Virus record (IMG/VR): IMGVR_UViG_3300048833_000190
Coordinates: 1-30,121 of that record
DNA: 30,121 bases
Direction: 5' to 3' (one strand)
Source: a virus
Shown here: one piece after another, positions 3,618 to 14,614 of the stretch
Layout of the letters: every line of letters begins with the position of its first letter
How positions within the stretch are numbered: position 1 is the stretch's first letter
Made by a program: the position numbers and the translations under genes
The notes under the pieces: model-generated
Databases searched by the model: none
What the model saw: only the letters and a program-made list of their open reading frames with translations
Told to the model about the DNA's origin: nothing

Positions 3618-3693
3618 GCGGGAATAGCTCAGTTGGTAGAGCGCAACCTTGCCAAGGTTGAGGTCGAGAGTTCGAGACTCTTTTCCCGCTCCA
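3618..3693 (+). tRNA. tRNA-Gly (anticodon GCC)
   Basis: A full cloverleaf can be folded. The acceptor stem GCGGGAA pairs with TTCCCGC (3683-3689), the D-arm GCTC...GAGC is present, and the anticodon stem CAACC/GGTTG encloses the loop TTGCCAA with anticodon GCC. The T-arm GAGAG-TTCGAGA-CTCTT is followed by discriminator T and an encoded CCA (3691-3693). Length is 76 nt. Confidence 0.95.
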
Positions 3694-3701
3694 ATTTCCA
3701 C

Positions 3702-3730
3702 AAAAAGGGAAGCGTTTGCTTCCCTTTTTT
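3702..3730 (+). terminator. Rho-independent terminator after tRNA-Gly
   Basis: The inverted repeat AAAAAGGGAAGC (3702-3713) and GCTTCCCTTTTT (3718-3729) has a 4-nt loop and ends in a run of T. It lies between the two tRNA genes, so tRNA-Cys may need read-through or its own promoter. Confidence 0.7.
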
Positions 3731-3749
3731 GTCAGGGGTACGGTTTTCT

Positions 3750-3823
3750 GGCGCGGTAGCAAAGCGGTTATGCCCCGGATTGCAAATCCGGTTAGTCCGG
3801 TTCGACTCCGGACCGCGCCTCCA
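3750..3823 (+). tRNA. tRNA-Cys (anticodon GCA); probable prophage attachment site
   Basis: Acceptor stem GGCGCGG pairs with CCGCGCC (3813-3819). The anticodon stem CCGGAT/ATCCGG carries the loop TTGCAAA-type anticodon GCA, the T-arm is GTCCG-GTTCGAC-TCCGGAC-like, and CCA is encoded at 3821-3823. The tRNA is intact. A tyrosine integrase gene begins 167 bp downstream on the same strand, the usual arrangement when a phage integrates into the 3' end of a tRNA gene and restores it. The duplicate core (attR) would lie beyond the right end of the window, so the att assignment is inference. Confidence 0.93.
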
Positions 3824-3858
3824 GTCTCAAGCCTTGCAAAGTAAGCCTCTACAGCTAT

Positions 3859-3879
3859 AAAAAGCGTAGCGGCTTTTTT
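3859..3879 (+). terminator. possible weak terminator after tRNA-Cys
   Basis: AAAAAGC (3859-3865) can pair with GCTTTTT (3872-3878), leaving a 6-nt loop and a T-run. Only two G-C pairs support the stem, so it may be weak. The surrounding GCTATAAAAA...GCGTAGC also resembles the host's small palindromic repeat. Confidence 0.35.
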
Positions 3880-3911
3880 GTTTTCTGAGGCTGGATGTAG
3901 TGCAAACCAGC

Positions 3912-3944
3912 GCTCTGCTACCGCGTTTCAGTAGCTCTGCTACC
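3912..3944. repeat. 11-bp direct repeat upstream of the integrase gene
   Basis: GCTCTGCTACC occurs at 3912-3922 and again at 3934-3944, 22 bp apart, which is about two helical turns and so on the same DNA face. It lies between tRNA-Cys and the integrase start. Such spacing suits arm-type integrase or excisionase binding sites, but this is inference. Confidence 0.45.
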
Positions 3945-3989
3945 TTTAACCGGATCGTGCAGTTCCCCGAGCCGAGTTACCATTGCGCG

Positions 3990-5129
3990 ATGTCATTCAA
4001 CGTTCAACAGCGCGGCAAGCGGTATCAGTTGCGGGTAAAGCATGCCCTGTTGCACAAGCCGTTTTTTTTCACTTTCGACACCGAAGCCGAGGCGCTTGCC
4101 TACGGCGAGGTGCTGGAATCGGTGCTCTCCCGTGGCATTGTGCCGTCCGAGCTGCTGGCCGGGCCGGTGGTCAAGGCTGACGACCCGCTGGTGATTGAGG
4201 TCATCCGCGCCTACAGCCGTGCGGCGCATGTGGCGCCGTCTGATGGCGAGGTGCTGGATTTGCTGGTGCGCGAGACGCCTGGCCTGCGCGTGTCTGGCGT
4301 CACGTTTGCATGGTGCGATGACTACGTGCGGCGCCTCAAGCGCGTCAACAACCTGGCGCCTGGCACGATCCGCAAGCGGGTGGGGTCGCTGGCGCGGGTG
4401 CTGGACTGGCACATCCGGCAGACGACAGCACCGGGCGCACCGCCCCAGGCCAATGCACTGCGCCTGCTGCCCCGTGGGTACAGCGCCTACACGCCCGACG
4501 ATGTGGCCGCAGGGGCAAAGCCCAAGCGTGACGAGGTGCGCAACCGGCGCCTGGCGCCCGACGAATGCGCGCGCATCCTGCAGGCCCTGGCCGGGCACAA
4601 GCGGCCCGACAGGCAGCGTGCGCTGGAGGTGGACCCGGCATTTGCCCTGCTGTTTGATTTGATCGTGGACACCGGCCTGCGGTTGTTTGAGGCGTACCGC
4701 CTGCGCGTGACGTCGGTTGATTTTGACCAGGGCGTCATCAACGTGGACGGCAGCAAGGGGCACCACGGCGTCATCAAGCCGCGCGTGGTGCCACTCAAAC
4801 CTGCGCTGCGCGAAAAGCTGCGCGCGTGGTGCGATGGCCGGGTGGGGTTGGTGTTCCCGTTCTGGGATGGGTCGCCGGGGGACAAAGACCTAGCGTCTGG
4901 CCGGTTGACGGCGCGCTTCGCGGTGCTGTTCGACTATGCCGAGGTGCCCGATTTTAGGGAGCACGATTTGCGCCACGAGGCCACCTGCCGCTGGGTGGAG
5001 CTGCGCAACGCTACGGGCTGGGTGTTTTCCGAGATTGAGATTTGTCGAATAATGGGCTGGTCTGACACGCGCATGATGCTGCGCTATGCATCGCTGCGCG
5101 GGTCTGACCTGGCCTCACGCCTGGCCTAA
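3990..5129 (+). CDS. int: tyrosine-family site-specific integrase
   Basis: Catalyses integration and excision of the prophage by strand exchange between attP and attB. The ATG at 3990 (379 aa, MSFNVQQRGKRYQ...) is chosen because the N-terminal arm-binding region with KRYQLRVKH begins there; an in-frame start at 3900 would add 30 residues with no resemblance to the family. A core-binding domain follows at about residues 80-180. The catalytic set is visible: Arg231 in TGLR, the Lys of DGSKGHHG, His325-Arg328 in HDLRHE, Trp in MGWSDTRMM and the nucleophile Tyr366 in LRYASLRG. The gene lies beside tRNA-Cys and is convergent with the excisionase-like gene, overlapping its 3' end by 15 bp. Confidence 0.93.
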   Translation: MSFNVQQRGKRYQLRVKHALLHKPFFFTFDTEAEALAYGEVLESVLSRGIVPSELLAGPVVKADDPLVIEVIRAYSRAAHVAPSDGEVLDLLVRETPGLRVSGVTFAWCDDYVRRLKRVNNLAPGTIRKRVGSLARVLDWHIRQTTAPGAPPQANALRLLPRGYSAYTPDDVAAGAKPKRDEVRNRRLAPDECARILQALAGHKRPDRQRALEVDPAFALLFDLIVDTGLRLFEAYRLRVTSVDFDQGVINVDGSKGHHGVIKPRVVPLKPALREKLRAWCDGRVGLVFPFWDGSPGDKDLASGRLTARFAVLFDYAEVPDFREHDLRHEATCRWVELRNATGWVFSEIEICRIMGWSDTRMMLRYASLRGSDLASRLA

Positions 5130-11999: not shown

Positions 12000-13397
12000 T
12001 CACGCGGCTGTGCTGGCCGATGGATTTGGTGTGGTGGTATGCACGCGGTGCAGTGCCTTGCTGAGGTTTTTGCCTTCCACCGGGTGGCCGCGTTTGAGTA
12101 GCGCTTTGCACATGGCGGCGCGCTCCTGGTGGCTGTGGCTGGCCTGGCGCACCAGGCCCAGGTAGCTGTTGCCCGTGGCGTAGGTGTCGGCGTCGGGCAT
12201 TTGCGCGATGCGCTGCAGGGCGGTGGCCAGGGTGCGGGGGCGGGTGGTGCGGCGCCATGGCTTGATGACGTGCCCCACGAAGTCCACGCCGCGCGCCACG
12301 GGCTGCAGGATGGTCTTGCGGGGGTTGAGCTGCAGGTGCAGGCCGGCCAGGTGCTGCTCGATGGCGGCGCGGGCGGCGTTGAGCCACTGCGGGCTGTGGT
12401 GCAGCAGGATGAAGTCGTCCACATAGCGCACGTAGTGCGGCGCGCGCAGGCGGTGTTTGATGAACTGGTCCAGGTCATCGAGCAGCACGTTGGCAAAGAA
12501 CTGGCTGCTCAAATTGCCGATGGGTAGGCCGTGGTGGGCTGGGGCGTTGAACAGGCGCTTGTGCGGCGGCACCAGGGCGCTTTCGCGCGGGGTGCCGCGC
12601 ACCTCCACGTCGCCGCGCGGGTCGTGCATGAGGATGGTTTCGGCCAGTGCCATCCACCAGGGCTCATGCACGCGGCGCTGCAGCTGGGCGAGCAGCACGG
12701 TTTTGTCGATGCTGACGAAGAAGTTGGCCAGGTCGCACTTGAGGTAGTGGGCCGGGTGGCTCCAGTTGGCCGTGGCGCTGCGCACCTGGCTCTCCAGCCG
12801 CTGGGCGGCATACAGCGTGCCCCGGCCTGGGATGCAGGCGCAGCTGTCTGCCGTGAAGCTGGCGTGAAAGCGCGGCGCGATTTGGTTGTAGAGCAGGTGA
12901 TGCACGATGCGGTCGCGAAAGCGTGCTGCCCACACCTCGCGCGGCTTGGGGTGGGTGATGACGAAGCACACGCTGCGGCCGGGCTGGTAGGTGCCGGCGC
13001 GCAGTTCGTCGTGCAGTTGCCGAAGGTTGTGCTCGGCCTGGGCCTCGAAGGCCATCGCACTGGCGCTGTTGCGCTTGTGGCGGCGGCAGTCGAGCCAGGC
13101 TTGCACGAGCAGCTGGAACAGGTGCGGATCTGCGGAGGGCAACGGCTGAACCCTCAAAGCTCTTGTGGTTGTTGTTCTGGTTGCCGTTGTTGAAGTTGCA
13201 ATTCCAGGCGTAGGAGGCGCAACCATCGCGCTATGTAGGCCGCGCTGCCGAAGGATTTGGCCGATCAGCGGTGCGGCTGCACCGGACGCGCCGCGCGCGG
13301 GCGCGGCCGTTTCCGTTGTGTGCCTGTCGGTGGGCTTGTGGCCCAGCGGCGCGACCAGATTCACCATGCGCACGGGCATGAGGGCCTTGACCGTCAT
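12000..13397 (-). CDS. DGR reverse transcriptase
   Basis: Retron/group II-like reverse transcriptase that copies the template-repeat RNA into adenine-mutated cDNA. RT motifs in order: N-terminal LRAGTYQPG and PKPREVWAARFRDRIVHH, ACIPGRGTLYAAQRL, LKCDLANFFVSIDK, the DGR-diagnostic IGNLSSQFFANVLLDDLD (the family has IGxxxSQ), the catalytic YVDD at 12414-12425 and a thumb with DFVGHVI. The start is uncertain. ATG 13397 overlaps the avd stop as ATGA and gives 465 aa, but it reads straight through the TR. Other in-frame starts are ATG 13226, TTG 13157 or TTG 13142 (408, 385 or 380 aa), while typical DGR RTs have 330-400 aa and conserved sequence begins near HLFQLLVQAW (about 13125). The C-terminus is Ser/Thr/Pro-rich. 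Confidence 0.93.
   Translation of the reverse strand: MTVKALMPVRMVNLVAPLGHKPTDRHTTETAAPARGASGAAAPLIGQILRQRGLHSAMVAPPTPGIATSTTATRTTTTRALRVQPLPSADPHLFQLLVQAWLDCRRHKRNSASAMAFEAQAEHNLRQLHDELRAGTYQPGRSVCFVITHPKPREVWAARFRDRIVHHLLYNQIAPRFHASFTADSCACIPGRGTLYAAQRLESQVRSATANWSHPAHYLKCDLANFFVSIDKTVLLAQLQRRVHEPWWMALAETILMHDPRGDVEVRGTPRESALVPPHKRLFNAPAHHGLPIGNLSSQFFANVLLDDLDQFIKHRLRAPHYVRYVDDFILLHHSPQWLNAARAAIEQHLAGLHLQLNPRKTILQPVARGVDFVGHVIKPWRRTTRPRTLATALQRIAQMPDADTYATGNSYLGLVRQASHSHQERAAMCKALLKRGHPVEGKNLSKALHRVHTTTPNPSASTAA
13128..13219 (-). repeat. DGR template repeat (TR)
   Basis: 92-bp segment matching VR1 (13800-13891) and, over 88 bp, VR2 (14234-14321). Read in the frame used by the targets it would encode NCNFNNGNQNNNHKSFEG: a run of AAC/AAT codons, the codon bias that gives adenine mutagenesis the widest amino-acid range. 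The end nearest the RT core (13128-13163) is identical to VR1 and corresponds to the homing initiation (IMH) part. The TR lies between avd and the RT core and overlaps the open RT frame. Confidence 0.95.
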
Positions 13398-13756
13398 ACT
13401 GCTGGCGCCCTGTTCTTGGCGGACTTGAGCCACCCGCCGGCCTGCGCACCGATGCTGCCCAGCAGCTGCACGGCCTGGGCCCACAGCTTGGGCGAGACGC
13501 GGCGCGCGTCAAAGCTGACGCGCAGCAACACCTCTACCGTACGCTGGTGCTTGAGCAGCTCGCGCAGGTAGTGCGCCCGCTGGTCCTTGGAGGCGTTGGC
13601 CAGGGCCATCAACTCCAGGATGTCGGTGCAGTGCTGGGCGATCTTCTCGCCCACGGTGCGCTTCATGCCGCGCGGCATCTGCTCTTGAACGCTATGGGCC
13701 AGCGTGAGCAGCTCCAAGCCTGTGCGGTAGATGGGTAGTTGGGTGTGCAGGGCCAT
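13394..13756 (-). CDS. avd: DGR accessory variability determinant Avd
   Basis: 120-residue, basic, four-helix-bundle protein of the Avd family. Landmarks are LPIYRTGLELLTLAHSVQEQ near the N-terminus, MPRGMKRTVGEKI, the HYLRELLKHQRTVEVLLRVS helix, and a C-terminal helix with VSPKLWAQAVQLLGSIG. In BPP-1, Avd forms a pentamer that binds the RT and the template RNA and is required for cDNA synthesis. It lies between target 1 and the TR, the canonical position. ATG 13756 is 32 bp after the target 1 stop, and its stop overlaps an ATG of the RT frame. Identification rests on sequence pattern plus context. Confidence 0.92.
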   Translation of the reverse strand: MALHTQLPIYRTGLELLTLAHSVQEQMPRGMKRTVGEKIAQHCTDILELMALANASKDQRAHYLRELLKHQRTVEVLLRVSFDARRVSPKLWAQAVQLLGSIGAQAGGWLKSAKNRAPAV

Positions 13757-13788
13757 GGGGTGGGGCTCAAGTCAAAGGATTGAAGGAT

Positions 13789-14181
13789 TTAAGGAATCAA
13801 TCTGCGGAGGGCAACGGCTGAACCCTCAAAGCTCTTGTGGTAGCCGTACTGGGAGCCGAAGGTGAAGTTGCAAAGCCAGGCGGAGGAGGCGTCTTCTTCA
13901 TCTTCCTGGCCCGACCAGTACCAGCCCGGCTGCAGGTGCGGCTTGCAGTTGGCGAAAAGCAGTGCCTGTTCTTGCCGGTCGGGCAGTTCGCCGCCCACGC
14001 TGGTGGCCCAGGCCTTGGCGGCGTCCCAGTTCAGGCGGGATTCGGGGCGGTGGGGCAGCAGCACCAGGTGGTGTTTGACGCGGCCTTCGGCGTCGAGCAC
14101 GGGGCCTGCGTAGCGCTCTCCGGGGTGTAGCTCGATGGTGATGGCGGGGATCTGGAGGGGGGTGGTTTCGGTGGTGGTCAT
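13789..14181 (-). CDS. DGR target protein 1 (variable CLec/DUF1566-type)
   Basis: 130-aa protein whose C-terminal third is VR1. The N-terminal part (MTTTETTPLQIPAITIELHP) is followed by the core LNWDAAKAWATSVGGELPDR, then PGWYWSGQE and the variable segment AWLCNFTFGSQYGYHKSFEG, ending SAVALRRLIP. The WAxxxGGELPxR plus W-x-W plus SFEGSAVALR layout fits a C-type-lectin-like/formylglycine-enzyme-like fold as in DUF1566 and other DGR targets. Variable residues correspond to TR asparagine codons. No signal peptide or membrane segment is seen. It is paralogous to target 2. The start ATG 14181 follows AAGG. Its ligand is unknown. Confidence 0.88.
   Translation of the reverse strand: MTTTETTPLQIPAITIELHPGERYAGPVLDAEGRVKHHLVLLPHRPESRLNWDAAKAWATSVGGELPDRQEQALLFANCKPHLQPGWYWSGQEDEEDASSAWLCNFTFGSQYGYHKSFEGSAVALRRLIP
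13800..13891 (-). repeat. DGR variable repeat VR1
   Basis: Same length as TR (92 bp), with 12 substitutions, each at a TR adenine on the coding strand: TAC to TCC, AAT to CTT, AAC to ACC, TTC, TCC, TAC, GGC and TAC. The 37 or so bases at the low-coordinate end are identical to TR. Confidence 0.95.
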
Positions 14182-14212
14182 GGGATGGCCTTGAAGAAAA
14201 GGACTGAAGGAC

Positions 14213-14614
14213 TCAAGAACTGAGGGGAATCAAGCGGAGGGCAACGGCTGAACCCTCAAAGCTCTTGCGGGTGTCGTTCTGGCCGCCGTAGCTGAAGTCG
14301 CAATTCCAGGCGTAGGAGGCGCCTTCGGTCTCCTGGCACCAGTGCCATGCGGGCTTCAGCAGGGGCTTGACATTGGCGAACAGCATTGCGGCGATGGGGC
14401 GGGTGGGCAGCTGGCCCCCGCGCTCTGCGGCCCAGGCGGTGGCCTGGCTGTGGTTCAGGTTTTCGCCACGGTCGGGCAGCAGCACTACGGCGCAGTGCGT
14501 GCCGTCGGGTTGGGTGGTGATGCCTGCGAAGGTGCCGCCGTCGAGTGGGGCAGAAAGGGTTGGGAGTTGGCTGAAGTTCACGGGGGAGGCTCCTGTGGTG
14601 GGTGAATGGGTCAT
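14213..14614 (-). CDS. DGR target protein 2 (variable CLec/DUF1566-type)
   Basis: 133-aa paralogue of target 1. The order is N-terminal Thr/Pro/Ser-rich leader, GTHCAVVLLPDRGENLNHSQ, TAWAAERGGQLPTRP, KPAWHWCQETEGASYAW, then variable NCDFSYGGQNDTRKSFEG and SAVALRLIPLSS. Start ATG 14614 overlaps the preceding stop as ATGA. Eight TR adenines are changed, so this copy is closer to TR than target 1. Compared with target 1 it lacks one Arg codon after SAVALR and has four extra C-terminal residues. The position in the early operon, not in a tail module, is unusual for a phage DGR target. Function is unknown, although such folds display variable ligand-binding surfaces. Confidence 0.88.
   Translation of the reverse strand: MTHSPTTGASPVNFSQLPTLSAPLDGGTFAGITTQPDGTHCAVVLLPDRGENLNHSQATAWAAERGGQLPTRPIAAMLFANVKPLLKPAWHWCQETEGASYAWNCDFSYGGQNDTRKSFEGSAVALRLIPLSS
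14234..14321 (-). repeat. DGR variable repeat VR2
   Basis: 88 bp aligned without gaps to TR 13132-13219, with 8 substitutions, all at TR adenines on the coding strand: AAC to GAC, AGC, TAC, GGC, GAC and ACC, and CAC to CGC. One AAC, the AAT and the TAC that changed in VR1 are unchanged here. Confidence 0.95.

Follow-up and report, generated by a model that had tools for sequence, protein, structure and literature searches.

A phage diversity-generating retroelement with a conserved structured RNA 5' of its template repeat and a long-range helix predicted to close the template into a loop

In the diversity-generating retroelement (DGR) of Bordetella phage BPP-1, an adenine in the spacer 3' of the template repeat (TR) primes the cDNA, and structured RNA 3' of the TR is needed (PMC12875486). 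The msr-msd RNA of retrons has 5' and 3' ends that base-pair, and the stem they form finishes beside a guanosine whose 2'-OH primes the cDNA (PMC6868368). DGRs with two variable repeats (VRs), and TRs that overlap the start of the reverse transcriptase (RT) gene, are already known: the 2012 DiGReF paper lists multiple VRs, and a TR that extends into the beginning of the RT open reading frame (ORF), for DiGReF group 3 and Pseudomonas fluorescens WH6 (two VRs) (PMC3521204). Here we describe a DGR from a 30.1-kb IMG/VR record (the window, meaning the whole stretch of DNA analyzed), in which the minus strand of positions 12000-14614 carries, in order, target gene 1, target gene 2, avd, the TR, and the RT gene. 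We consider it likely that this is the DGR of a lambda-like temperate phage, that it belongs to an active family, and that its TR is looped within a 5' RNA scaffold, with proposed priming from the 5' side.

That this region is a DGR is confirmed by its parts. A repeat of ~89 nt occurs in three copies on the minus strand, namely the TR (13132-13220), a VR proximal to avd (13804-13892), and a distal VR (14234-14322). A first-pass annotation made from the sequence had reported 12 and 8 VR differences, all on TR adenines; on recounting, 20/20 differences from the TR fell at its adenines, 12 of them in the avd-proximal copy and eight in the distal copy. Adenine accounts for 24 of the 89 TR bases, and by simple arithmetic the chance of all 20 falling there is ~4e-12. 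Fifteen of the 24 TR adenines are changed in at least one VR; a single G>A where the 89-nt register begins is not part of the TR-VR homology. The homing end was also identical as reported, with the TR and VR 3' ends matching through ...GCCGTTGCCCTCCGC, and domain searches agreed with the annotated RT, with its IGNLSSQ and YVDD motifs, and Avd-type protein (Table 1). The match of Avd to the bAvd family (PF22296, E 3e-9) was slightly below the gathering score, and the nearest solved relative of the RT is 8ub7, whose molecule is named 'Reverse transcriptase'; PADLOC matches to defence RTs were rejected as generic RT-domain matches. No further VR was found on either strand of the 30-kb record, which ends within the capsid gene. 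The sequence comparisons show that an invariant TR, together with RT and Avd, diversifies a pair of neighbouring small proteins with a C-type lectin fold, and a third, distant one in many relatives.

The cassette belongs to a large Pseudomonadota prophage family. Pattern scans, with tblastn as confirmation, yielded 80 loci from genomes and 80 from viral records that encode related RTs, most of them in prophages of Pseudomonas and Burkholderiales. A repeat finder without bias toward A mismatches detected TR/VR pairs in 147 of these 160 loci as well as in the window; one further locus, L043, was added later, and in all about 149 of 160 relatives carry the signature. The two local targets lie ~0.65-0.75 kb and 1.1-1.4 kb upstream of the TR, and about one third of loci have a further target 1.9-9.6 kb away. 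Across 300 unique pairs, a count that left out pairs with >3 non-A mismatches, 3729 of 3908 TR-VR mismatches were at A, which makes up 30% of TR bases. When near-identical relatives were compared, VR sites had changed at 440/1107 TR-adenine positions and at 22/2449 other VR positions, while the TR itself was nearly constant (8/2029 sites). One such pair (L115 and L117) differed at 15/39 VR-adenine sites versus 1/1666 flank sites. Because the differences between such close relatives are confined almost entirely to VR adenines, these comparisons indicate that the DGR family is active today. The first-pass annotation had read the cassette as mutagenic retrohoming into two genes from one template, had predicted changes at TR adenines in related strains, and had named VR differences spread evenly over all four bases, or a TR varying together with its VRs, as the contrary outcome; the relatives found by the genome search it proposed support the former and not the latter. 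No close DNA relative of the window was found among phage records.

Two observations bear on how recently individual loci have changed. A pair of viral contigs (L145 and L146) differed at 31/59 VR-adenine sites, 1/150 other VR sites, 0/107 TR sites, and 0/2584 flank sites, a contrast that amounts to very recent diversification. In L119, where the TR lies at -119 to -13 upstream of the RT, both VRs differ from the TR at so few positions (two and five mismatches) that they look recently reset or only just seeded.

The first-pass annotation had recognized the RT, Avd, TR, and VRs of the cassette but overlooked a structured RNA and a long-range helix. The RNA is a full-length match to the Rfam family RT-15 (RF03018), above the gathering score (154.9 vs. 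82 bits), and our own covariance model scored the window RNA at 181 bits. Because single-sequence folding was uninformative in this GC-rich RNA (z 0.46), covariation was used instead. An independently made alignment of 19 sequences had compensatory changes in 24/47 pairs (0/500 shuffles), and 97.1% of cells in the RT-15 alignment pair, compared to at most 39.7% with the partners slid. With our own model, the RNA was found in nearly all related loci that retain sequence upstream of the RT, and the same RT-15 annotation adjoins the RT in the GenBank record of one relative. The 3' end of the RNA coincided with the start of the TR (-8 to +2 nt) in 146/148 loci; in the remaining two the VR alignments were truncated. 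The name and description of RT-15 in Rfam assign it no role in DGRs.

The opposite border of the TR is marked by the long-range helix, P0, in which one strand (a1) lies within the RT-15 RNA and the other (a2) at the TR 3' boundary. P0 was scored in 94 non-redundant loci with both sides anchored on sequence outside the helix. It comprises 9 bp and was 86% Watson-Crick over the nine positions. Pair 7 occurred as all four Watson-Crick types (72 GC, 11 UA, 6 AU, and 2 CG of 94), and rare variants of the helix covary (AAUCCG/CGGAUU and CACCUG/CAGGUG). None of 5000 shuffles reached the observed value, nor did any of 500 in the main measures of a pair-counting tool, and sliding the strands lowered the pairing from 0.80 to at most 0.31. 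The window helix has 8 bp and one A-C mismatch. An RNA-first search of 300 Burkholderiales genomes returned six loci over the cut-off. The three scorable new genomes had A-changed VRs together with P0 (7-9/10), and P0 was also present in two loci already within the family set; a further locus offered no anchor for scoring, and another yielded nothing. The limits of TR-VR homology coincide with P0. Because a1 pairs with a2, the base of the RNA core would form the 5' edge of the TR and P0 its 3' edge, so that P0 is predicted to make the TR a closed loop with a topology like that of retron msr-msd. By the comparative evidence, a conserved non-coding RNA has the TR as its loop; from 5' to 3' this RNA consists of a P1 hairpin, a1, the invariant G, the closed and multi-branched RT-15 core, the TR, and a2.

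Table 1. Features of the retroelement (positions are those of the window)
Feature	Position	Strand	Details
Target gene 1, 133 aa, small soluble C-type-lectin/Lcl_C-like	14213..14614	-	ORF, C-terminal VR
VR1 (distal)	14234..14322	-	8 differences from TR, all at A
Target gene 2, 130 aa, Lcl_C-like C-type lectin fold	13789..14181	-	Pfam Lcl_C E 7e-4, below gathering score
VR2 (proximal, nearest avd)	13800..13891	-	12 differences from TR, all at A
avd, accessory variability determinant	13394..13756	-	PHROG 3206 'Avd protein of DGR' E 7e-22
RT-15 RNA (Rfam RF03018)	13219..13410	-	154.9 bits, E 2.4e-38; 3' end abuts TR
a1 strand, GUGAAUCUG	13356..13364	-	Linker between RT-15 helices 1 and 2
Invariant G	13355	-	Immediately 3' of a1; 94/94 representatives; proposed 2'-OH primer
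TR	13128..13220	-	3' homology limit = a2 start
a2 strand, CAGAUCCGC	13124..13132	-	TR 3' boundary; pairs with a1
RT, IGNLSSQ and YVDD	12000..13127	-	PF00078 (RVT_1) E 7e-15; PHROG RT E 1e-114

The locus L043 separates the template RNA from the RT. Its RT lies ~0.85 kb downstream and has its own ATG, yet RT-15 and the TR are intact, P0 is a perfect 10 bp, and three VRs with A-only changes are retained. Because L043 carries an unrelated gene beyond a2 with the rest intact, sequence in that position appears to be dispensable in nature. The gene between TR and RT (L043:9059-10001) encodes a product that by eye resembles a PAPS-reductase relative.

The layout around the TR also differs between groups of DGRs. 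In the RT-15 family, 0-46 nt separate the TR from the RT domain, compared to 144 nt in BPP-1. In six other phage DGRs, 8-34 nt precede the TR and 141-326 nt follow it; in the Bacteroides phages F2 and BS-TP1 the corresponding distances are 110-128 nt and 51-70 nt. The BPP-1 order described in the first-pass annotation holds for the genes, but the functional RNA layout is reversed, the scaffold being 5' and a 3' spacer lacking, and the cassette itself is part of an early integrase-to-repressor operon and not of a tail module. Rfam Phage_DGR (RF03022) covers the BPP-1 3' spacer and RT-14 that of BalMu-1; neither matched in the window region, and the window has no structured cDNA-priming spacer of the BPP-1 type 3' of its TR. 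Conversely, RT-15 had no credible match in BPP-1-like or Melainabacteria loci. Relatives of F2 have the same kind of stem covarying at the TR boundary (UUAUCUGUAAA/UUUACAGAUAA and UUUCCGUAA/UUACGGAAA), with 0.79 Watson-Crick pairing, a value matched by 2/5000 shuffles and compared to at most 0.37 in other registers. No P0-like stem was found in BS-TP1, and the Bacteroides clade had no Rfam match. An RT tree, with some long branches and small sampling, parts the 3'-spacer DGRs from all others with support of 100/99. In gut relatives from Melainabacteria/Gastranaerophilales (L078-L083; RT 42-46% identical), a TR upstream of the RT was not found. In one of these, avd runs straight into the RT with no TR between (L082:9565-11110), and a large gene on the opposite strand downstream has a possible C-type-lectin VR. 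Stems of at least 6 bp, a hairpin trait of a DGR subset, follow 26-49% of family VRs compared to ~3% when shuffled, and do not follow the TR; after the window VRs there are 4-bp stems only.

In the mechanism we propose, the RT-Avd complex would dock on the 5' core and P0 would bring the TR 3' end into the active site, where cDNA would be primed from the 5' side. On the simplest reading, priming would occur at or near the invariant G that follows a1; by analogy with retrons the 2'-OH of this G may be the primer, an assignment to which we give even weight for and against. The loop would then be copied with errors at A, synthesis would stop at the base of the core, and the cDNA would replace the VRs.

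P0 could instead be a translation-control or RNA-processing element that hides or frees the RT start and is unrelated to priming. The a2 strand lies at the 5' end of the RT frame, both a2 and the TR overlap the open RT frame, and 36/92 representatives lack a start codon between the TR end and the RT motif, so the RT N-terminus may be encoded by the TR, read in a frame other than that of the targets. In the window, the open RT frame extends back across the TR and RT-15 (12003-13379). However, P0 is perfect in L043 despite the distant RT with its own ATG, it stays at the TR boundary in Bacteroides DGRs although the RT starts 40-61 nt away, and it coincides with the TR-VR homology limits, which makes such a role unlikely. 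A conventional BPP-1-type DGR, with its 3' priming spacer hidden in the RT coding sequence and RT-15 as an additional 5' element, would accord with the RNA that BPP-1 requires 3' of its TR (PMC12875486) and with the position of Phage_DGR and RT-14 in BPP-1 and BalMu-1. Synonymous-site constraint is not raised in the first RT codons, though, neither Rfam family was found in the window region, and an unrelated gene follows a2 in L043; we regard such a hidden spacer as very unlikely. It is extremely improbable that the window cassette is a decayed remnant: it has two targets only, an unclear RT start codon, and activity evidence from other phages, but its RT motifs, Avd, RNA, and homing ends are intact, the RT frame is stop-free from 13127 to 12003, and its VR changes are A-only.

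The targets raise a separate question. Targets 1 and 2 are 45% identical, and the AlphaFold2 model of target 2 (pLDDT 84) best matched the Lcl C-terminal domain from Legionella in the PDB (8q4e, probability 1.00, E 7.8e-3); on this evidence the C-terminal VR of the target falls within a C-type-lectin fold. The family targets scanned resemble Lcl_C as well, several scoring over the Pfam cut-off and several under it, and are 120-235 aa long with little beyond the VR domain. From its left end, the window holds host-type clpX/lon frames, tRNA-Gly, tRNA-Cys, an integrase, a leftward operon, and a helix-turn-helix (repressor-like) gene, and the rightward genes are CII-like, terminase, portal, and capsid. 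The two tRNA genes directly precede the integrase beside the host clpX/lon-type genes (window 3618-5129), a stretch that is probably the prophage-host junction. Third or fourth remote targets are present in the same leftward operon in L013, L033, L036, L108, L124, and others, and in the annotated isolates Magia and Cruim01 the remote target is placed on the repressor side of the operon.

In the survey of Roux et al. 2021, which by its own account misses remote targets, tail proteins make up most of the viral DGR targets in clades 1, 4, and 6 (PMC8144416), and this tendency, together with the C-type lectin fold, would suit virion receptor-binding proteins as in BPP-1, here encoded far from the tail genes. 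In five isolate phages, however, the cassette lies between the integrase and a CI-type repressor, apart from the tail module, whereas six DGR phages outside the family keep it beside baseplate, antireceptor, or virion genes; the short targets, with little outside the VR domain, also argue against virion proteins, and we find this explanation doubtful. Because of the early integrase-repressor operon and the short, cytoplasmic-looking targets, we favor an intracellular role; our guess is that the targets more likely bind host or rival-phage molecules in the cell than act as tail fibres.

Several points weigh against the looped, 5'-primed template that we prefer and the roles attached to it. P0 pairs poorly in 3/94 representatives (L052, L063, and L077), and about one third, including the window, have a mismatch at pair 6, mostly A-C. 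The priming site and termination point are read from sequence rather than from RNA or cDNA, the evidence for activity comes from relatives and not from the window's own phage, and the guess of intracellular binding draws on location, size, and fold only. Among the papers covered, none mentions RF03018 or an RT-15 RNA or motif, and relative to those papers both the helix and the assignment of a 5' scaffold appear to be new, but a similar proposal may exist.

If the looped template is correct, an orphan Rfam RNA gains a role, and DGR template RNAs need not share the layout of BPP-1, the source of the current mechanism; template borders, primer, and stop site would be predicted from RNA structure alone. 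DGRs may fall into two mechanistic classes by RNA layout, a proposition we hold evenly balanced, with BPP-1 priming from a 3' spacer and the Pseudomonadota RT-15 and Bacteroides-phage DGRs priming as retrons do, from a scaffold on the 5' side with a long-range stem that sets the limits of the template. Were this true, DGR and retron priming, and with them two retroelement classes, would be tied mechanistically, and the second class would be separable from its RT and re-targetable by a loop swap, offering a compact, modular tool for targeted mutagenesis. The early-operon location also raises the question of why temperate phages diversify small non-tail proteins.

With retrons the locus shares the order of a long-range stem 5' strand, adjacent G, structured 5' RNA, template, 3' strand, and RT (PMC6868368), its complementary RNA ends lying beside a conserved G. 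It differs in having a DGR-type RT with Avd and TR/VR repeats rather than a retron-clade RT without them, and in adenine mutagenesis and retrohoming into VRs. Retrons produce multicopy single-stranded DNA (msDNA) with a 2'-5' branch, while the present system is known from its sequence, and we do not class it as a retron because that branch would need biochemistry. The DiGReF passages on group 3 and WH6 mention neither an RNA scaffold nor a long-range helix (PMC3521204). The Bacteroides F2-type DGRs share the short TR-RT gap and a covarying a1/a2-type stem, with 128 nt between avd and TR in F2, but their RTs are 34-36% identical and their gene neighbourhood is different. The RNA is the same as Rfam RT-15, here joined to a TR, with its 3' limit explained and a long-range helix added. 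With BPP-1 (bRT/Avd/mtd) the locus shares an RT, Avd, and an invariant TR, with adenine-specific diversification of a C-terminus with a C-type-lectin fold; in BPP-1, avd abuts the TR, 144 nt lie between TR and brt, and the target is a tail fibre, whereas here a structured RNA lies 5' of the TR, there is no 3' spacer, and two adjacent targets are encoded in an early operon.

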